The notes under the pieces: model-generated
Told to the model about the DNA's origin: nothing
Databases searched by the model: none
What the model saw: the letters and a program-made list of their open reading frames with translations, nothing else
Assembly: GCF_013912005.1 (NCBI RefSeq)
Contig: NZ_JACESB010000018.1
Location: 1 to 48,068, forward strand
DNA: 48,068 nucleotides
DNA from: Brevundimonas sp.
Lineage (GTDB): Bacteria > Pseudomonadota > Alphaproteobacteria > Caulobacterales > Caulobacteraceae
Reading direction: 5' to 3'
Translations under genes and position numbers: made by a program
In this document: piece after piece, positions 35,955 to 41,482 of the stretch
How the letters are laid out: each line of letters opens with the position of its first letter
How positions within the stretch are numbered: the stretch's first letter is position 1

Positions 35955-37472
35955 TTGAAAGAACTGGTGAAATCGGGGGCGCTGGACGCCGAACTGGCCG
36001 CCGCCTTCGAGGCGTCGCCGAACCCGTACATGCTGCTGACCCCGGACCTGCGCTACGCCGGGATGAACGCCGCCTATCTCGCCGCCGTGGGCGCGCGCCG
36101 CGAGGACCTGCTCGGCCGCCCGATCTTCGAGGTCTTCGATTCCGGCCCGACCGAGGACGGCCGCGCCAACGCGCGGCAGCTGCGCGCCTCCTTCGAGCGG
36201 GTGCTGCGCGAGGGCCGGCGCGACCACCTCGCCCTGATCCGCTACGCCATGCCCGCCGCCGGCCCCGACGGCGAGACGGTGCTGCAGGAGCGCTTCTGGT
36301 CGGCCACCCACACCCCGATCCGCGACGCCTCCGGCCGCATCATCTACATCCTCCAGCACACCACCGACATCACCGAGCTGGAGCAGCTCCGGCGGCGGGC
36401 CGCCGGGGCGGACCGCAAACGCGCCATCGACTCCATCCTCAGCGGCAATGTCCTGCAGCGGGCGGAGCACGTGCAGCAGGCCAATCGCGAGCTCGAGACC
36501 GAGCGCAACCGCCTGCTGGAAATGTTCATGCAGGCCCCCGGCTTCGTCGCCGTGCTGTCGGGACCGGACCACGTCTTCCAGATGTACAATCCGGCCTACG
36601 CCCAGCTCATCGGCCACCGCGACCTGGCGGGCAAGCCGGTCCGCGAGGCGCTGCCGGAGGTGGTGGGACAGGCCTACATCGGCCTGCTGGACGCCGTCTA
36701 CGCCACTGGCGAGCCGCACGAGGGGCGGGCCAGCCGGGTCGAACTCCAGCGCACGCCGGACGGGCCGCTGGAGACCGTCTGGCTGGATTTCATCTACCAG
36801 CCGATCCGCGACGACTCCCGCAACGTCGTCGGCATCTTCGTGCAGGGCCACGACGTCACCGAGACGGTGCTCTCGACCGAGCGCCAGAAGCTGATGATCG
36901 ACGAGCTGAACCACCGGGTGAAGAACACCCTGGCGACGGTGCAGTCGATCGCCATGCAGACGGCGCGGACGCACCGCGACCCCGTGGGGTTCGCCGAGAG
37001 CTTCCAGGCCCGCCTGCTCGCCCTGTCGCACACCCACGACCTGCTCACCCGCAGCCATTGGGAGGGCGCCGACCTGCGCGACGTGCTGGAGCACGAGACC
37101 AAGGCCCACGGGCCGCACCGGATCTCCCTCGTCGGCCCGCCGGTGGCGCTCGAGCCCGCCGCCGCCCTGTCGCTGGGCATGGTCTTCCACGAACTGGCCA
37201 CCAACGCGGCCAAGTACGGCGCCCTGTCGGTCCCCGAGGGCCGGGTGCTGGTCGACTGGGGCGTCAGCGACCAGACCAGTCCGGTCCTGCGCCTCGCCTG
37301 GCGCGAGGTCGGCGGCCCGCCGGTGCAGGCGCCGGAACGCCGCGGATTCGGCAGTCGGCTGATCGAACGCAACGTGCATCATGATCTGGCGGGCGTGGTC
37401 GAACTCGACTACGCACAAAGCGGTTTCAGTGCGGAGTTCTCGATCCCGCTGGACGGGAGGAGTCGACAATGA
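35955..37472 (+). CDS. PAS-domain HWE-family sensor histidine kinase
   Basis: A 505-residue cytoplasmic sensor kinase with no membrane segments. PAS 1 is at about 15-140 and PAS 2 at about 185-305, joined by a helix with a coiled-coil look (HVQQANRELETERNRLLEMF). The HWE/HisKA_2 phosphoacceptor is His320 in DELNHRVKNTLATVQSIA; the N-box is HELATNAAKYGALS and the diagnostic W-x-E is in LAWREVGG, followed by FGSRLIER. HWE kinases of Alphaproteobacteria often sense light or stress; there is no clear LOV cysteine here. Start TTG 35955 with GGGG upstream; an in-frame GTG at 35967 is possible. It overlaps the response-regulator gene by 4 bp. Confidence 0.93.
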   Translation: MKELVKSGALDAELAAAFEASPNPYMLLTPDLRYAGMNAAYLAAVGARREDLLGRPIFEVFDSGPTEDGRANARQLRASFERVLREGRRDHLALIRYAMPAAGPDGETVLQERFWSATHTPIRDASGRIIYILQHTTDITELEQLRRRAAGADRKRAIDSILSGNVLQRAEHVQQANRELETERNRLLEMFMQAPGFVAVLSGPDHVFQMYNPAYAQLIGHRDLAGKPVREALPEVVGQAYIGLLDAVYATGEPHEGRASRVELQRTPDGPLETVWLDFIYQPIRDDSRNVVGIFVQGHDVTETVLSTERQKLMIDELNHRVKNTLATVQSIAMQTARTHRDPVGFAESFQARLLALSHTHDLLTRSHWEGADLRDVLEHETKAHGPHRISLVGPPVALEPAAALSLGMVFHELATNAAKYGALSVPEGRVLVDWGVSDQTSPVLRLAWREVGGPPVQAPERRGFGSRLIERNVHHDLAGVVELDYAQSGFSAEFSIPLDGRSRQ

Positions 37473-37846
37473 GCGAGACGCTGACGGGACGCCGCATCCT
37501 GGTGGTGGAGGACGAGTCCCTCGTCGCCATGCTGCTGGAGACGATCCTCGAGGACATGGGCTGCACCCCGGTCGGACCGGCCGCGACGGTCGAGGACGGG
37601 CTGGGCTTCGCCACCGACGGCGAACGCCTCGACGCGGCCCTGCTCGACGTCAACGTGGCCGGCCGCCAGGTCTTCCCGGTGGCCGACGCCCTGAAGGCCG
37701 CGGGCGTGCCCTTCGTCTTCTCCACCGGCTACGGCGAGGGCGGCCTGCCCGACGAATGGCGCGGCCACGCCACCATCCAGAAGCCCTTCACCGAGGCCGC
37801 CGTCCGCGACGCCCTGATGAAGGCGATGGGTCAGGCGAACGTCTGA
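37469..37846 (+). CDS. Single-domain response regulator
   Basis: A 125-residue receiver with no output domain. The acidic pair is Glu14/Asp15, phosphoacceptor Asp60 in ALLDVNVAG, Thr86 in FSTGYGE and Lys105 in IQKPF. The start overlaps the HWE kinase stop by 4 bp, so it is the cognate partner. Without an output domain it probably acts as a phosphate relay or sink or binds another protein. Its stop is only 2 bp from the heptad inverted repeat. Confidence 0.93.
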   Translation: MSETLTGRRILVVEDESLVAMLLETILEDMGCTPVGPAATVEDGLGFATDGERLDAALLDVNVAGRQVFPVADALKAAGVPFVFSTGYGEGGLPDEWRGHATIQKPFTEAAVRDALMKAMGQANV

Positions 37847-37847
37847 A

Positions 37848-37967
37848 GCGGTAGGGCAACAGGCGGCAGGCAGCAGGCAGCAGGATCGACGACGGAGCTT
37901 CCTCCCCGTCGTCACCGGCCGCCGCCTCGAAGGTCCCGCCTGCTGCCTGCTGCCTGCTGCCTACCGC
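37848..37967. repeat. Heptad inverted repeat, copy 1
   Basis: The left arm (37848-37884) begins GCGGTAGG and continues as 7-bp units ending AGG (CAACAGG, CGGCAGG, CAGCAGG, CAGCAGG); AGG recurs at 37861, 37868, 37875 and 37882. The right arm (37939-37967) is the reverse complement pattern, with CCT at 37939, 37946, 37953 and 37960, ending CCTACCGC. The 54-bp spacer contains an 8-bp hairpin (37888-37895 with 37906-37913). It starts 2 bp after the response-regulator stop and its right end supplies the last two codons and stop of the oxidoreductase. A second element of the same design is at 39533-39623. Confidence 0.85.
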
Positions 37968-39532
37968 CCCAGATCCCTCATCACCGCCCGCGCCGCATTG
38001 TGCCCCGGGGCGCCGGTGACGCCGCCGCCGGGATGGGCGCCGGAGCCGCACAGATAGAGGCCGGGCACGGGCATCCGGTAGTCGGCGCAACCCAGCACCG
38101 GCCGGGCGCTGAACAGCTGGTCCAGGGTCAGCCGCCCGTGGAAGATGTCGCCGCCGACCAGGCCGAAGCGCCGCTCCAGATCGCGCGGCCCCAGCGCCAG
38201 CCGCCCCAGCACCGAGGCCCTGAACCCCGGCGCATGGGCCTCGACCGTGTCGATCATCAGATCGGCCACCGTGTCGCGGTGCGCGTCGCCCAGGGCCGGA
38301 TCGACATGCTGGCAGAACAGGCTGGCGACGTGCTGTCCCGGCGGAGCCAGGCTGTCGTCCAGGGTCGAGGGGATCAGCATCTCCACGATCGGCCGCGACG
38401 ACCAGCCGTTCAGCCGCGCCTCGGCGTGGGCCCGGTCCATATAGGCCAGCGACGGGGCCATGATGATCCCGGCCGTCAGGTGGTCCCCCGCCCCCGGCAG
38501 GGCGGTGAAGTCGGGCAGCTGCGACAGGGCCACGTTCATCCGGAACGTCCCCGAGCCGGACTGGTGGTTGCCGATCCGCTCGCGGAAGTCGGCCGGGACC
38601 ACGGCGTCGTCGACCAGCCGTTCGAACAGCAGGCGCGGATGCAGGTTCGAGACCACCGCCCGCGCCCGCACGACGTCGCCCGCCTCCGTCACCGCCCCGA
38701 CCGCCCGGCCCTTCTCGGTCAGCACCTCGGCGACGGGCGCCTCCAGCCGCACCTCCACCCCCTGTTCGGCGCAGGCCCGGGCCATGGCCTGGGTGATCGC
38801 CCCCATGCCGCCCAGGGCGTGACCCCAGACCCCCTTCCGCCCGTTCACCTCGCCGAACACGTGATGCAGCAGCACATAGGCCGAGCCCGGCGTGTACGGG
38901 CTGGCGTAGTTCCCCACCACGCTGTCGAAGCCGAACAGGGCCTTGATCGGGTCGCTCTCGAACCAGCCGTCCAGCCAGTCGCCGGCGGATTTGGTGAACA
39001 GGTCCAGCAGGTCGCGCCGGCCCTGCACGTCCAGCCCCGCCGCCTGCCGCCCCAGCGACGCCCCCTTCAGCAGCTCCGGCAGCATGGTCATCCAGCCGCC
39101 CTCCACCATGTTCGGCGGCGCCTTCAGGATCCAGTCGCGCAGGATCGCCGCAACCACCTCCAGCCGCCGCTCGTATTCCGGCAGCCGCTCCGCATCGCGG
39201 GCCGAGAATTTCGCCGCCTCCGCCGCGGTGCGCCCCTCCCCCGCCAGCAGATGCCGGCCGTCCTCCAGCGGCAGGAAGTTGGAGACCCGGCGCTCGACCA
39301 CGGCCAGGCCGTGCCGGGCCAGCGCCATGTCGGCGATGACCTTCGGATTGAGCAGGCTGACGGTGTAGCTGGCCGTGGAATTGCGGAAGCCGGGATGGAA
39401 TTCCTCCGTCACCGCCGCCCCGCCGACCACGTGCCGCCGCTCCAGCACCGTCACCTTCAGCCCGGCCCGCGCGAGATAGAAGGCGCAGACCAGGCCGTTA
39501 TGGCCCCCGCCGAGGATGACGACGTCTGTCAT
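37961..39532 (-). CDS. Phytoene-dehydrogenase-like FAD-dependent oxidoreductase
   Basis: A 523-residue flavoprotein of the CrtI/PYROXD2-like group. The N-terminal dinucleotide fold is VVILGGGHNGLVCAFYLARAGLKVTVLERR, followed by HVVGGAAVTEEFHPGFRNS. The C-terminal FAD motif is GLYLCGSGAHPGGGVTGAPGHNAARAVMRDL. No other carotenoid gene is near, so carotenoid desaturation should not be assumed; the PYROXD2-like subgroup has no settled reaction. Both ends of the gene touch a heptad inverted repeat: the last two codons plus stop lie in copy 1 and copy 2 begins 1 bp upstream of the ATG. The end of the DUF817 frame overlaps its start by 35 bp. Confidence 0.9.
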   Translation of the reverse strand: MTDVVILGGGHNGLVCAFYLARAGLKVTVLERRHVVGGAAVTEEFHPGFRNSTASYTVSLLNPKVIADMALARHGLAVVERRVSNFLPLEDGRHLLAGEGRTAAEAAKFSARDAERLPEYERRLEVVAAILRDWILKAPPNMVEGGWMTMLPELLKGASLGRQAAGLDVQGRRDLLDLFTKSAGDWLDGWFESDPIKALFGFDSVVGNYASPYTPGSAYVLLHHVFGEVNGRKGVWGHALGGMGAITQAMARACAEQGVEVRLEAPVAEVLTEKGRAVGAVTEAGDVVRARAVVSNLHPRLLFERLVDDAVVPADFRERIGNHQSGSGTFRMNVALSQLPDFTALPGAGDHLTAGIIMAPSLAYMDRAHAEARLNGWSSRPIVEMLIPSTLDDSLAPPGQHVASLFCQHVDPALGDAHRDTVADLMIDTVEAHAPGFRASVLGRLALGPRDLERRFGLVGGDIFHGRLTLDQLFSARPVLGCADYRMPVPGLYLCGSGAHPGGGVTGAPGHNAARAVMRDLGR

Positions 39533-40469
39533 GAGGTTCTTGGGTCCAGGGGCTAGGTTCCAGGGGGGAACGGCGACGCTGCAGACCCCTCCCTAGCACC
39601 TGGCCCCTATCCCCTAGAACCTCCTCTTCGGGCCGGTGCACCAGCGACACCAGCACGACCGACACGATCATCAGCAGGAACCAGCTCCCCAGCTTTTCCA
39701 GACCGACAGGCTGCCAGCCGTCCGCCTGTCCGGGGTAGGCCCAGGCGCGGCCGAAGGTGGCGAGGTTCTCGGCGATCCAGATGAACAGCGCGACGAGGAA
39801 ATAGCCTGCCAGCAGCGGCATGGCCCGCCGCCTCCGGTCCGCCGTGAAGTGGAACCAGCCGCGGCCGAACAGCAGCGCCGTAAGGGCGAACAGCGCCAGC
39901 CGCACATCCGGCAGCCAGTGGTGGGCGAAGAAGTTCACATAGATCGCCGCCGCCAGCAGCCAGGTCGTCCAAATGGGCGGATAGCGCGTCACCCGGATGT
40001 GGAAGATGCGCTGCACCCGCGCGATGTAGCTGCCGACGGCCGCATACATGAAGCCCGAGAACAGCGGCACGGCGCCGATGCGGAGCAGGCTCTCCTCCGG
40101 ATAGATCCACGAGCCGTGCGCGGTCTTGAACAGCTCCATCACCGTGCCGGCCAGGTGGAAGAGGAAGATGACCCGCGCCTCCTCCCAACTCTCGAGCCGG
40201 AAGGCCAGCATCGCCGCCTGGATCGCCACGGCCCCGACTACGAGGAAATCGTAGCGCGAGACCCGCGCTCCCTCCGGCCACCACAGGAAGGTGGCGACGA
40301 TCAGCGCCAGCATGGCCCCGCCGAACAGGCAGGCCCATCCCTGCTTCAGTCCGAACCAGAGGAGCTCGAAGACATAGCCCCGCCACCGCGCCCCGTCCGC
40401 CCACGCCTGGGCTTCGGTCAGAAGAAGGCGGCCCCGGGTTTCGAGGGGGAGGCGGCGTGCGTCGGTCAT
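39498..40469 (-). CDS. DUF817 family membrane protein with repeat-derived C terminus
   Basis: A 323-residue predicted membrane protein of family DUF817, function unknown. Seven to eight hydrophobic helices are seen between about 45 and 280, with conserved blocks LAGTVMELFKTAHGSWIYPEESLLRIGAVPLFSGFMYAAVGSYIARV and NFFAHHWLPDVR. Members normally end soon after the last helix; here a polar tail of about 45 residues after LVHRPEEE (LGDRGQVLGRGLQRRR and on) is translated straight through heptad inverted repeat 2 and into the start of the oxidoreductase gene. The tail therefore looks like an extension caused by the repeat, with loss of the original stop. Confidence 0.85.
   Translation of the reverse strand: MTDARRLPLETRGRLLLTEAQAWADGARWRGYVFELLWFGLKQGWACLFGGAMLALIVATFLWWPEGARVSRYDFLVVGAVAIQAAMLAFRLESWEEARVIFLFHLAGTVMELFKTAHGSWIYPEESLLRIGAVPLFSGFMYAAVGSYIARVQRIFHIRVTRYPPIWTTWLLAAAIYVNFFAHHWLPDVRLALFALTALLFGRGWFHFTADRRRRAMPLLAGYFLVALFIWIAENLATFGRAWAYPGQADGWQPVGLEKLGSWFLLMIVSVVLVSLVHRPEEEVLGDRGQVLGRGLQRRRSPLEPSPWTQEPHDRRRHPRRGP
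39533..39623. repeat. Heptad inverted repeat, copy 2
   Basis: The left arm has AGG (one TGG) at 39534, 39541, 39548, 39555 and 39562, an exact 7-bp period. The right arm has CCT at 39592, 39599, 39606, 39613 and 39620, again every 7 bp. The arms pair over about 36 bp, with both outer ends reading GAGGTTCT when drawn 5'-3' on opposite strands; heptads are AGGGGCT, AGGTTCC, AGGGGCC, AGGTGCT and similar. The spacer is about 20-25 bp. Unit sequence differs from copy 1, but heptad length, AGG phasing, inverted layout and contact with gene ends are the same. Confidence 0.85.
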
Positions 40470-41095: not shown

Positions 41096-41431
41096 CTAGA
41101 GGGCGCGCGCTTCCAGTCGGGCGATCCACCGCGCCGCCCGCGCCTTCAACTCCATGTCCCGCGCCAGGAGGGAGGCGTCCTCCGGCAGCCGGTCCAGCTG
41201 TTCGAACCGGAAATCCGCCTCCTCATGCCTGTTCCACGCCGCCTGCAGGCTGCGGAACGGCGAGCTGCCCCGCCGCAACGCGAACCACAGGCCGTTCTGC
41301 TCGGTGTCGATGTGACGGCTCTGCCCCACCCACGCCTCGCCTGTCGCCGTGCAGATCACCGCGAACACGCCGGCGATGGTCTTGCGTTCCTTGTAGGCCG
41401 CAATGAGGGCCTTCCGATCCCGGGACGTCAT
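41096..41431 (-). CDS. GIY-YIG nuclease family protein
   Basis: A 111-residue protein with a compact GIY-YIG-like core: AGVFAVICTATGEAWVGQSRHI holds the two short strands (the GIY/YIG positions are degenerate, VFA and WVG), followed by a conserved-looking Arg and helix region RRGSSPFRSLQAAWNRH and EADFRFEQLDRL. Small stand-alone members like this are common in Caulobacterales; function unknown. ATG 41431 has a perfect AGGAGG; the longer frame to 41449 does not. It is divergent from the nitronate monooxygenase gene, with two ACCCGGGT palindromes upstream. Confidence 0.8.
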   Translation of the reverse strand: MTSRDRKALIAAYKERKTIAGVFAVICTATGEAWVGQSRHIDTEQNGLWFALRRGSSPFRSLQAAWNRHEEADFRFEQLDRLPEDASLLARDMELKARAARWIARLEARAL

Positions 41432-41445
41432 CCGGCCCCTCCTTT

Positions 41446-41482
41446 TCACCCGGGTGATATAGACGACGTTTCTACCCGGGTA
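41446..41482. promoter_or_regulatory. Paired ACCCGGGT palindromes, probable operator
   Basis: TCACCCGGGTGA (41446-41457) and TACCCGGGTA (41473-41482) are perfect palindromes sharing the core ACCCGGGT, 26 bp centre to centre. On the minus strand they flank a TATATC that could be the -10 of the GIY-YIG gene. Two phased copies of one palindrome strongly suggest a dimeric repressor (MarR or TetR like). No regulator gene is adjacent. Confidence 0.6.

Follow-up and report, generated by a model that had tools for sequence, protein, structure and literature searches.

Two described systems are close to the DNA studied here; statements on cited papers, here and below, refer to the parts of each that were covered. 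The first is the set of GGGAATC heptamers of Xanthomonas, which number 186 and 183 arrays, include 70 and 75 convergent pairs and have been assigned no role; the same report describes heptamers as over-represented in bacteria, proposes polymerase slippage and mentions heptanucleotides of Calothrix (PMC4692102), and further bacterial heptamer arrays are on record (PMC2700814, PMC4679880). The second is the intervening sequence (IVS) of the Coxiella 23S rRNA: terminal inverted repeats form a stem, its loop carries the S23p open reading frame (ORF), and tandem heptamers precede this ORF, whose product, the intervening-sequence protein (IVP, or S23), is described without a known function (PMC4990558). 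Here we analyse two large inverted repeats built of heptads, copy 1 and copy 2, which lie at the two ends of an oxidoreductase gene in a 48,068-nucleotide stretch of Brevundimonas sp. (NCBI RefSeq assembly GCF_013912005.1, contig NZ_JACESB010000018.1), the whole of which we call the window. We report the anatomy of such elements, their association, their position, their presence or absence at orthologous sites and their replacement, and we conclude that copies 1 and 2 are probably ORF-less, or orphan, members of a family of IVP stem-loop insertions that keeps its period and pairing while the sequence varies.

Results

In copy 1, AGG starts at 37861, 37868, 37875 and 37882, with a further AGG at 37853 set off by an 8-bp step, and the opposite arm carries CCT at 37939, 37946, 37953 and 37960. 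In copy 2, AGG starts at 39534, 39548, 39555 and 39562, TGG takes the place at 39541, and CCT recurs at 39592, 39599, 39606, 39613 and 39620. These positions confirm, trinucleotide by trinucleotide, the original prediction of two large inverted repeats with AGG or CCT every 7 bp, one 8-bp step and one TGG; when every trinucleotide of the 48-kb window is considered, there are six runs of at least four at step 7, and 6/6 fall inside the two copies. Both copies have terminal inverted arms able to form a stem and heptad units in those arms (Table 1), with 87% complementarity in copy 1 and 28/36 positions paired in copy 2 (score 20 over 36). The predicted RNA folding energies of the two strands are −83.0 and −89.7 kcal/mol for copy 1 (z −8.3 and −7.1) and −61.1 and −55.7 kcal/mol for copy 2 (z −5.4 and −4.9), and 0/200 shuffles per strand match the native stability of either copy. 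No IVP/S23p ORF stands between the arms of either copy, protein genes rather than a 23S rRNA gene flank both, and their units (AGGCAGC; AGGTTCT/AGGGGCT types) are neither GGGAATC nor (GGGANTN)n. Rfam, applied to 37500-40000 at a permissive threshold, returned two matches to microRNA families, both far under their cut-offs, and no rRNA family.

The two copies belong to a class that is repeated through the genome. We scanned its 2,887,456 bases (42 contigs) with the pattern AGG(N4AGG)2-N10-40-(CCTN4)2CCT, match counts including overlapping registers and the pattern read backwards serving as control. There were 29 matches with loops of 10-40 and 51 with loops of 41-71, against 0 for the backwards control in both ranges; a single-arm backwards control matched 42 and 49 times, GGA being contained in GGGA units. 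At least 30 two-armed heptad palindromes are present, with unit types that vary by site (AGGGATG-, AGGTTCT/AGGGGCT- and AGGCAGC-type). Among relatives, the pattern with loops of 10-40 occurs in 21/249 genomes of a family sample, 18 of the 21 belonging to the same genus, and in 17/398 genomes of a phylum sample, spread over 9 genera whose units differ, while the backwards control matched once each in G105 (family) and G609 (phylum). The scan that the original prediction had called for thus turned up copies with varied units, and its idea of a structured repeat whose unit changes while the 7-bp period and the palindromy stay constant holds for many copies here and in related genomes; the fixed AGG that it assumed is common and yet not universal, since AGTGNNN units form a second class. 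In this genome (G000), a second pair of heptad palindromes of AGGGATG type (C19:26782-26970 and C19:27526-27627; L101) flanks one 161-residue ORF, and one arm at C11:41233-41277 (L087) is an array of AGGGTTT, the sequence of the plant telomere repeat.

Multicopy intergenic palindromes of this kind recall REP/REPIN-type palindromes mobilised by a RAYT transposase, and REPINs are an earlier example of hairpin DNA that is non-autonomous (PMC3116915). A conserved sequence is what identifies REP families (PMC3733652), whereas no conserved palindrome sequence is found here, unit classes varying freely among copies, sites and species; moreover, the association that we see is with IVP, RAYT genes not having been searched for. 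We regard this explanation as extremely improbable.

The palindromes sit close to gene ends. By our own gene calls (n=30), 12 sites are convergent, 15 lie between genes of the same direction, 1 is divergent and 2 overlap a called gene, namely copy 2 of the window, into which the frame of the DUF817 gene continues, and C31:4742; the outer arm end is at most 16 bp from a gene 3' end at 24/30 sites and at most 35 bp at 26/30. Intergenic location, gene-end position, convergent pairs and a G arm placed first thus all occur among the palindromes of this genome. Such positions, together with strong folding on both strands, are what would be expected of host terminators or 3'-end RNA stabilisers, gene-end hairpins grown by 7-bp slippage in whose loops IVP genes happened to land. 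Against this explanation, which we consider unlikely, the hairpin of an intrinsic terminator is present and its T run is not, 37400-40000 holding neither a promoter-like nor a T-run terminator-like site; copy 2 stands within a same-direction gene pair; and the IVP genes with such arms that occur across phyla are left unexplained.

It is these IVP genes that the original prediction missed, and they tie the class to intervening-sequence elements. At C12:55257-55708 and C15:31109-31591, loops of about 400 nt each encode a 128-130-residue product with a match to PF05635 (23S rRNA intervening-sequence protein; E 1.8e-35 and 4.7e-34). The genome has three PF05635 loci, two of them enclosed by two-armed heptad sites; the third, C11:5036, has 31-nt arms with 30 matching, of GTG type, with a best lag of 11 and hence not cleanly heptad. 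We compared the best inverted pair between IVP flanks with controls displaced by 900 bp at unchanged geometry, both for 58 loci from searches of this genome, the phylum and the family (whole-genome set; controls n=112) and for named genomes, where the best 80 of at least 581 relatives were taken and 78 analysed, L201 and L211 being omitted for short flanks (controls n=141). In the whole-genome set the median arm score is 24.5 against 11 in controls, with 49/58 loci above the control maximum (16) and 53/58 above the 95th percentile; at L127, which has only about 90 bp downstream, no arms are seen. The upstream arm matches itself best at lag 7 in 51/58 loci versus 6/112 controls, with a mean identity of 0.72 there, compared with 0.22-0.33 at lags 4-6 and 8-12, and G exceeds C in the upstream arm of all 58. 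The 78 named loci, which span Clostridia, Bacteroidota, Planctomycetes, Acidobacteria, Chloroflexi, Proteobacteria and candidate phyla, give a similar picture, 59 exceeding the control maximum and 69 the 95th percentile, with a best lag of 7 in 61 and of 8 in 8. Arms of Xanthomonas vasicola (L188), Luteimonas salinisoli (L166) and two Rhodanobacter (L170, L199) are of GGGAATC or GGGATTC type, so that L166, L188 and L199 carry GGGAATC or (GGGANTN)n units and L170 nearly does. By eye, heptad arms are also present at 3/4 IVP loci of cyanobacterial plasmids, two of these being near-identical Nostoc loci. One query against phages gave no IVP match at E 1e-5, and three 23S motifs are absent from loci L107-L244.

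Several individual loci are worth recording. The named loci of period 8 are L168, L174, L177, L220, L221, L229, L233 and L241, comprising five Bacteroidota, Cloacimonadota and two candidate-phylum loci, and L122, L136 and L158 have the same period in the whole-genome set. The IVP elements of the Nostoc plasmids (L276, L277) have GGGAACA heptad arms and lie directly 3' of a gene annotated as a TraM recognition domain protein, while on plasmid pANA02 of Anabaena sp. 90 (L278) the IVP gene, annotated 'four helix bundle protein', lies in a type I-D CRISPR locus, with cas6 on one side and cas4 on the other.

The strand polarity of the class invites a further explanation, in which the G-rich strand is functional and acts in regulation as a G-quadruplex or R-loop element. 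The G arm comes first in every pattern match, the C-arm-first order giving 0 matches with loops of 10-40 in this genome, and GGGAATC arrays form quadruplexes in vitro, for which the authors found no regulatory role in the parts of their report covered (PMC4692102). In many units a heptad contains no more than GG, and certain IVP arms, such as those of AGTGGCG and TTCGTTA, lack G-runs altogether, which makes a quadruplex role scarcely credible. Stop codons within the units were considered as a cause of the polarity and dropped; the G strands of AGGCAGC, AGGGTCG and AGGATAC hold none.

The orientation of the long form bears again on the terminator explanation. Among 28 IVP loci of the genus, 20 lie between two genes of the IVP's own direction, 5 are convergent, 3 have both neighbours running the opposite way and 0 are divergent. 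That IVP elements lie mostly within same-direction gene pairs favours a unit that travels within transcripts over a simple terminator function.

Short and long forms are linked by co-occurrence, unit class and site. In statistics that ignore kinship, IVP is found in 13/17 AGG-pattern genomes against 49/381 others of the phylum sample (p 1.4e-8), in 14/21 against 16/228 of the family sample (p 3.8e-10) and, within the genus, in 21/30 genomes with AGG or AGTG patterns against 5/26 (p 1.6e-4), or 13/18 against 13/38 for the AGG pattern alone (p 0.008). Similarity between orphan and IVP arms of the same genome is 14.8 versus 9.7 (permutation p 0.00045; 11 genomes, four of which share AGGCAGT by kinship). 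The two forms have unit classes in common and, in one case, the insertion site: where this genome carries an ORF-less AGGCAGC element at a convergent site (C11:24064-24158), G037 and G073 carry IVP elements with GGGATGA-type arms. Both forms pair better in register than when shifted by 7, at 27/28 orphans and at 52/53 IVP loci (0.89 vs 0.68), in a test biased that way since the register was chosen as the best; this agrees with one arm being copied from its partner. We hold a family link between heptad palindromes and IVP elements to be highly probable.

Comparison of occupied and empty sites points in the same direction. At one operon junction, examined in the best 30 loci among 131 genomes, 24/30 relatives are empty, the stop and start overlapping (TGATG), 4/30 have an IVP element that leaves 474-502 bp between that stop and start, and 2/30 have another gene. 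An insertion between overlapping operon genes sits poorly with terminators. As to a target-site duplication, the start-codon region looks repeated on both sides of the element in the occupied G316; at the other three occupied sites it is not clearly so. Occupied junctions differ in what they hold: L143, L144 and L146 compared with L152 and L155 have different arms and IVPs of 54-56% identity between flanking proteins of 85-94%, whereas the IVPs of L107 and L152 are 84% identical, above their flanks at 74-79%. Across the 51 of 58 whole-genome loci with an arm score of at least 16, arms track IVP lineage (Mantel r 0.63); arm similarity is low once the IVPs compared fall under about 50% identity, and the two arms within each element still match.

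These results also bear on an explanation by mutation alone, in which heptamers expand by slippage and template switching both creates and corrects palindromes, with neither mobility nor function. It can draw on the over-representation of heptamers and the slippage proposed for them (PMC4692102) and on the in-register pairing given above. It predicts none of the IVP link, the clean occupied and empty sites and the joint replacement of ORF and arms, and we rate it very unlikely.

The two window sites were followed through the 112/131 genus genomes with an oxidoreductase orthologue, in the best 30 of the 112 orthologous loci, a heptad palindrome being counted where the score was at least 13 and both arms showed lag 7. 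Occupancy is 9/30 loci at the 5' site of the oxidoreductase gene and 14/30 at the 3' site, with AGGTTCT-, AGTGGCT-, AGGGTCG-, AGGCAGY-, AGGGATG- and AGGGCTT-like units, so that presence and absence at orthologous sites, which the original prediction had named as support, are seen. Both sites are occupied in 6/30, near the 4.2 expected under independence; copies 1 and 2 are therefore not one composite structure and do not make a single unit around the oxidoreductase gene, and a single design of two copies about one gene, as the original prediction had read the locus, finds no support. At the 5' site, G312, G168, G307 and G024 have non-heptad palindromes; such palindromes, of TCATCCTCGGG... and GGGGACCCAGCGGCGC types, stand at loci L068, L053, L059 and L069 (L024-type site), so that the spot tolerates several palindrome kinds; other species have neither a heptad nor any other palindrome at the oxidoreductase sites.

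The host genes of the locus lie outside the elements (Table 1). Copy 1 stands between the oxidoreductase stop and a converging gene, and copy 2 between the oxidoreductase ATG (39530-39532) and the end of the DUF817 gene. As had been proposed, the gene between them is touched at each end, the outer heptad of copy 1 overlapping its TAG stop and copy 2 adjoining its ATG. The DUF817 frame meets no stop in copy 2 (39498-39625, minus strand) and runs on for about 50 more residues to overlap the oxidoreductase start; in some relatives a TAG within the heptads seems to terminate it. Elsewhere in the window, an ORF at 41096-41449 (minus strand) is a candidate for a GIY-YIG nuclease domain protein.

Table 1. 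Coordinates in the window of the two heptad palindromes and of the adjoining host genes
Feature	Coordinates	Strand	Basis or remark
Response-regulator-like protein, converges on copy 1	37469..37846	+	PF00072, 29.0 bits, just below cut-off 30.2
Copy 1 G-rich arm, AGGCAGC-type heptads	37854..37884	+	Period-7 runs, arm complementarity
Copy 1 loop, 54 nt	37885..37938	.	Folding, + strand: inner 8-bp hairpin 37888-37895 / 37906-37913; holds no convincing trace of IVP
Copy 1 C-rich complementary arm	37939..37969	+	Holds oxidoreductase TAG stop (CTA at 37961-37963)
FAD-dependent oxidoreductase, best family PF01593, host gene between copies, outside the element	37961..39532	-	
Copy 2 G-rich arm, AGGTTCT/AGGGGCT-type heptads	39533..39568	+	Adjoins oxidoreductase ATG
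Copy 2 loop, 19 nt	39569..39587	.	
Copy 2 C-rich complementary arm	39588..39623	+	At end of DUF817 domain gene
DUF817 gene (PF05675, residues 35-271), upstream of oxidoreductase gene	39498..40469	-	

Discussion

Without an ORF and outside rRNA, the window copies are treated as ORF-less relatives of IVP elements and are not placed in the 23S IVS family. The long form spans some 400-500 bp in which a G-rich heptad array, the IVP/S23 gene (PF05635) and the complementary array follow one another, and we suggest that it would spread as a DNA or RNA hairpin helped by IVP, an RNA or single-stranded DNA hairpin being the form that moves or is protected. The orphans may spread in trans or may be what remains after loss of the IVP gene; mobilisation in trans is a serious possibility that we do not quite favour. 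The arms might be retained for their folding, whether for protection or for RNase III processing of the kind described for intervening sequences of 23S rRNA, and if they are kept because they fold, copying or selection would preserve period and pairing, not letters. Insertion at stop codons could reflect the least harmful position or a target preference, and the repeats could be made by a repeat-adding enzyme or by polymerase slippage, either of which would be able to give period 7.

Several observations weigh against membership of the window copies in a mobile IVP family. Among 28 orphans no convincing IVP remnant was found, the best tblastn match having E 0.009 over 23 residues, and no IVP gene was found in 9/30 palindrome-bearing genomes of the genus and 4/17 of the phylum sample. 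AGTG arms of IVP elements predict AGTG orphans weakly (6/12 vs 11/44, p 0.096), many IVP loci lying outside the sample, and the arms do not rise above the 95th percentile of controls at 9/78 named and 5/58 other IVP loci. IVP is not known to be catalytically active.

A wider proposal, which we offer tentatively and regard as doubtful, is that of a pan-bacterial mobile stem-loop class whose ends are set by a 7-base period and self-complementarity, in which a repeat-adding step rebuilds both arms in each round and whose orphans account for many bacterial heptamer repeats. In such a class both arms would be rebuilt from one short unit, much as telomerase does at chromosome ends; the addition might proceed by reverse transcription, in which IVP would act as a partner resembling Avd, and in some loci of Bacteroidota and candidate phyla the period would be 8.

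The link proposed here would join two loose ends, heptad repeats reported without origin or role (PMC4692102) and IVP/S23 without a known function (PMC4990558). If a mobile class with sequence-free heptad arms does cross phyla, heptad palindromes would be its footprints, an origin would be on offer for seven-base repeats previously unexplained, and a role of IVP in binding, copying or moving period-7 hairpins would become testable; element ends that keep a period, not a sequence, would also evade homology-based repeat searches. Among the literature matches listed, only PMC4990558 joins IVP genes and heptad arms; most subscription literature lay outside this scope, so that an earlier description is possible, and searches of full-text literature with the repeat-unit strings gave three matches, all unrelated. 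The original view that no named family of this kind exists needs qualification, as the GGGAATC heptads of Xanthomonas are published, and stands insofar as the parts of that paper covered make no link to IVP (PMC4692102).

The elements described here resemble known systems in part. Like the IVP long form, the 23S rRNA IVS of Coxiella has a terminal stem whose loop carries a PF05635-type ORF, with heptamers in tandem next to it (PMC4990558), whereas the window copies lie between protein genes and hold no ORF. The Xanthomonas arrays share with the window class a G-rich 7-bp unit, intergenic placement near the end of the upstream gene, convergent inverted pairs and variation among relatives (PMC4692102), and differ in unit sequence. 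PF05635 is also reported to resemble Avd, which partners a reverse transcriptase in diversity-generating retroelements, with structural similarity between 4DWL and 2GSC (PMC10053308), the latter being the solved structure of an IVP/S23 protein, from Xanthomonas; a reverse transcriptase, template or variable repeat was neither searched for nor seen here. Miniature inverted-repeat transposable elements (MITEs) and REPINs likewise have short inverted-end copies beside a longer, gene-bearing form. The STRR heptanucleotide repeats of cyanobacteria are likewise heptad tandem arrays. In contrast to MITEs and REPINs, whose ends are conserved in sequence, the elements described here conserve period and pairing only.

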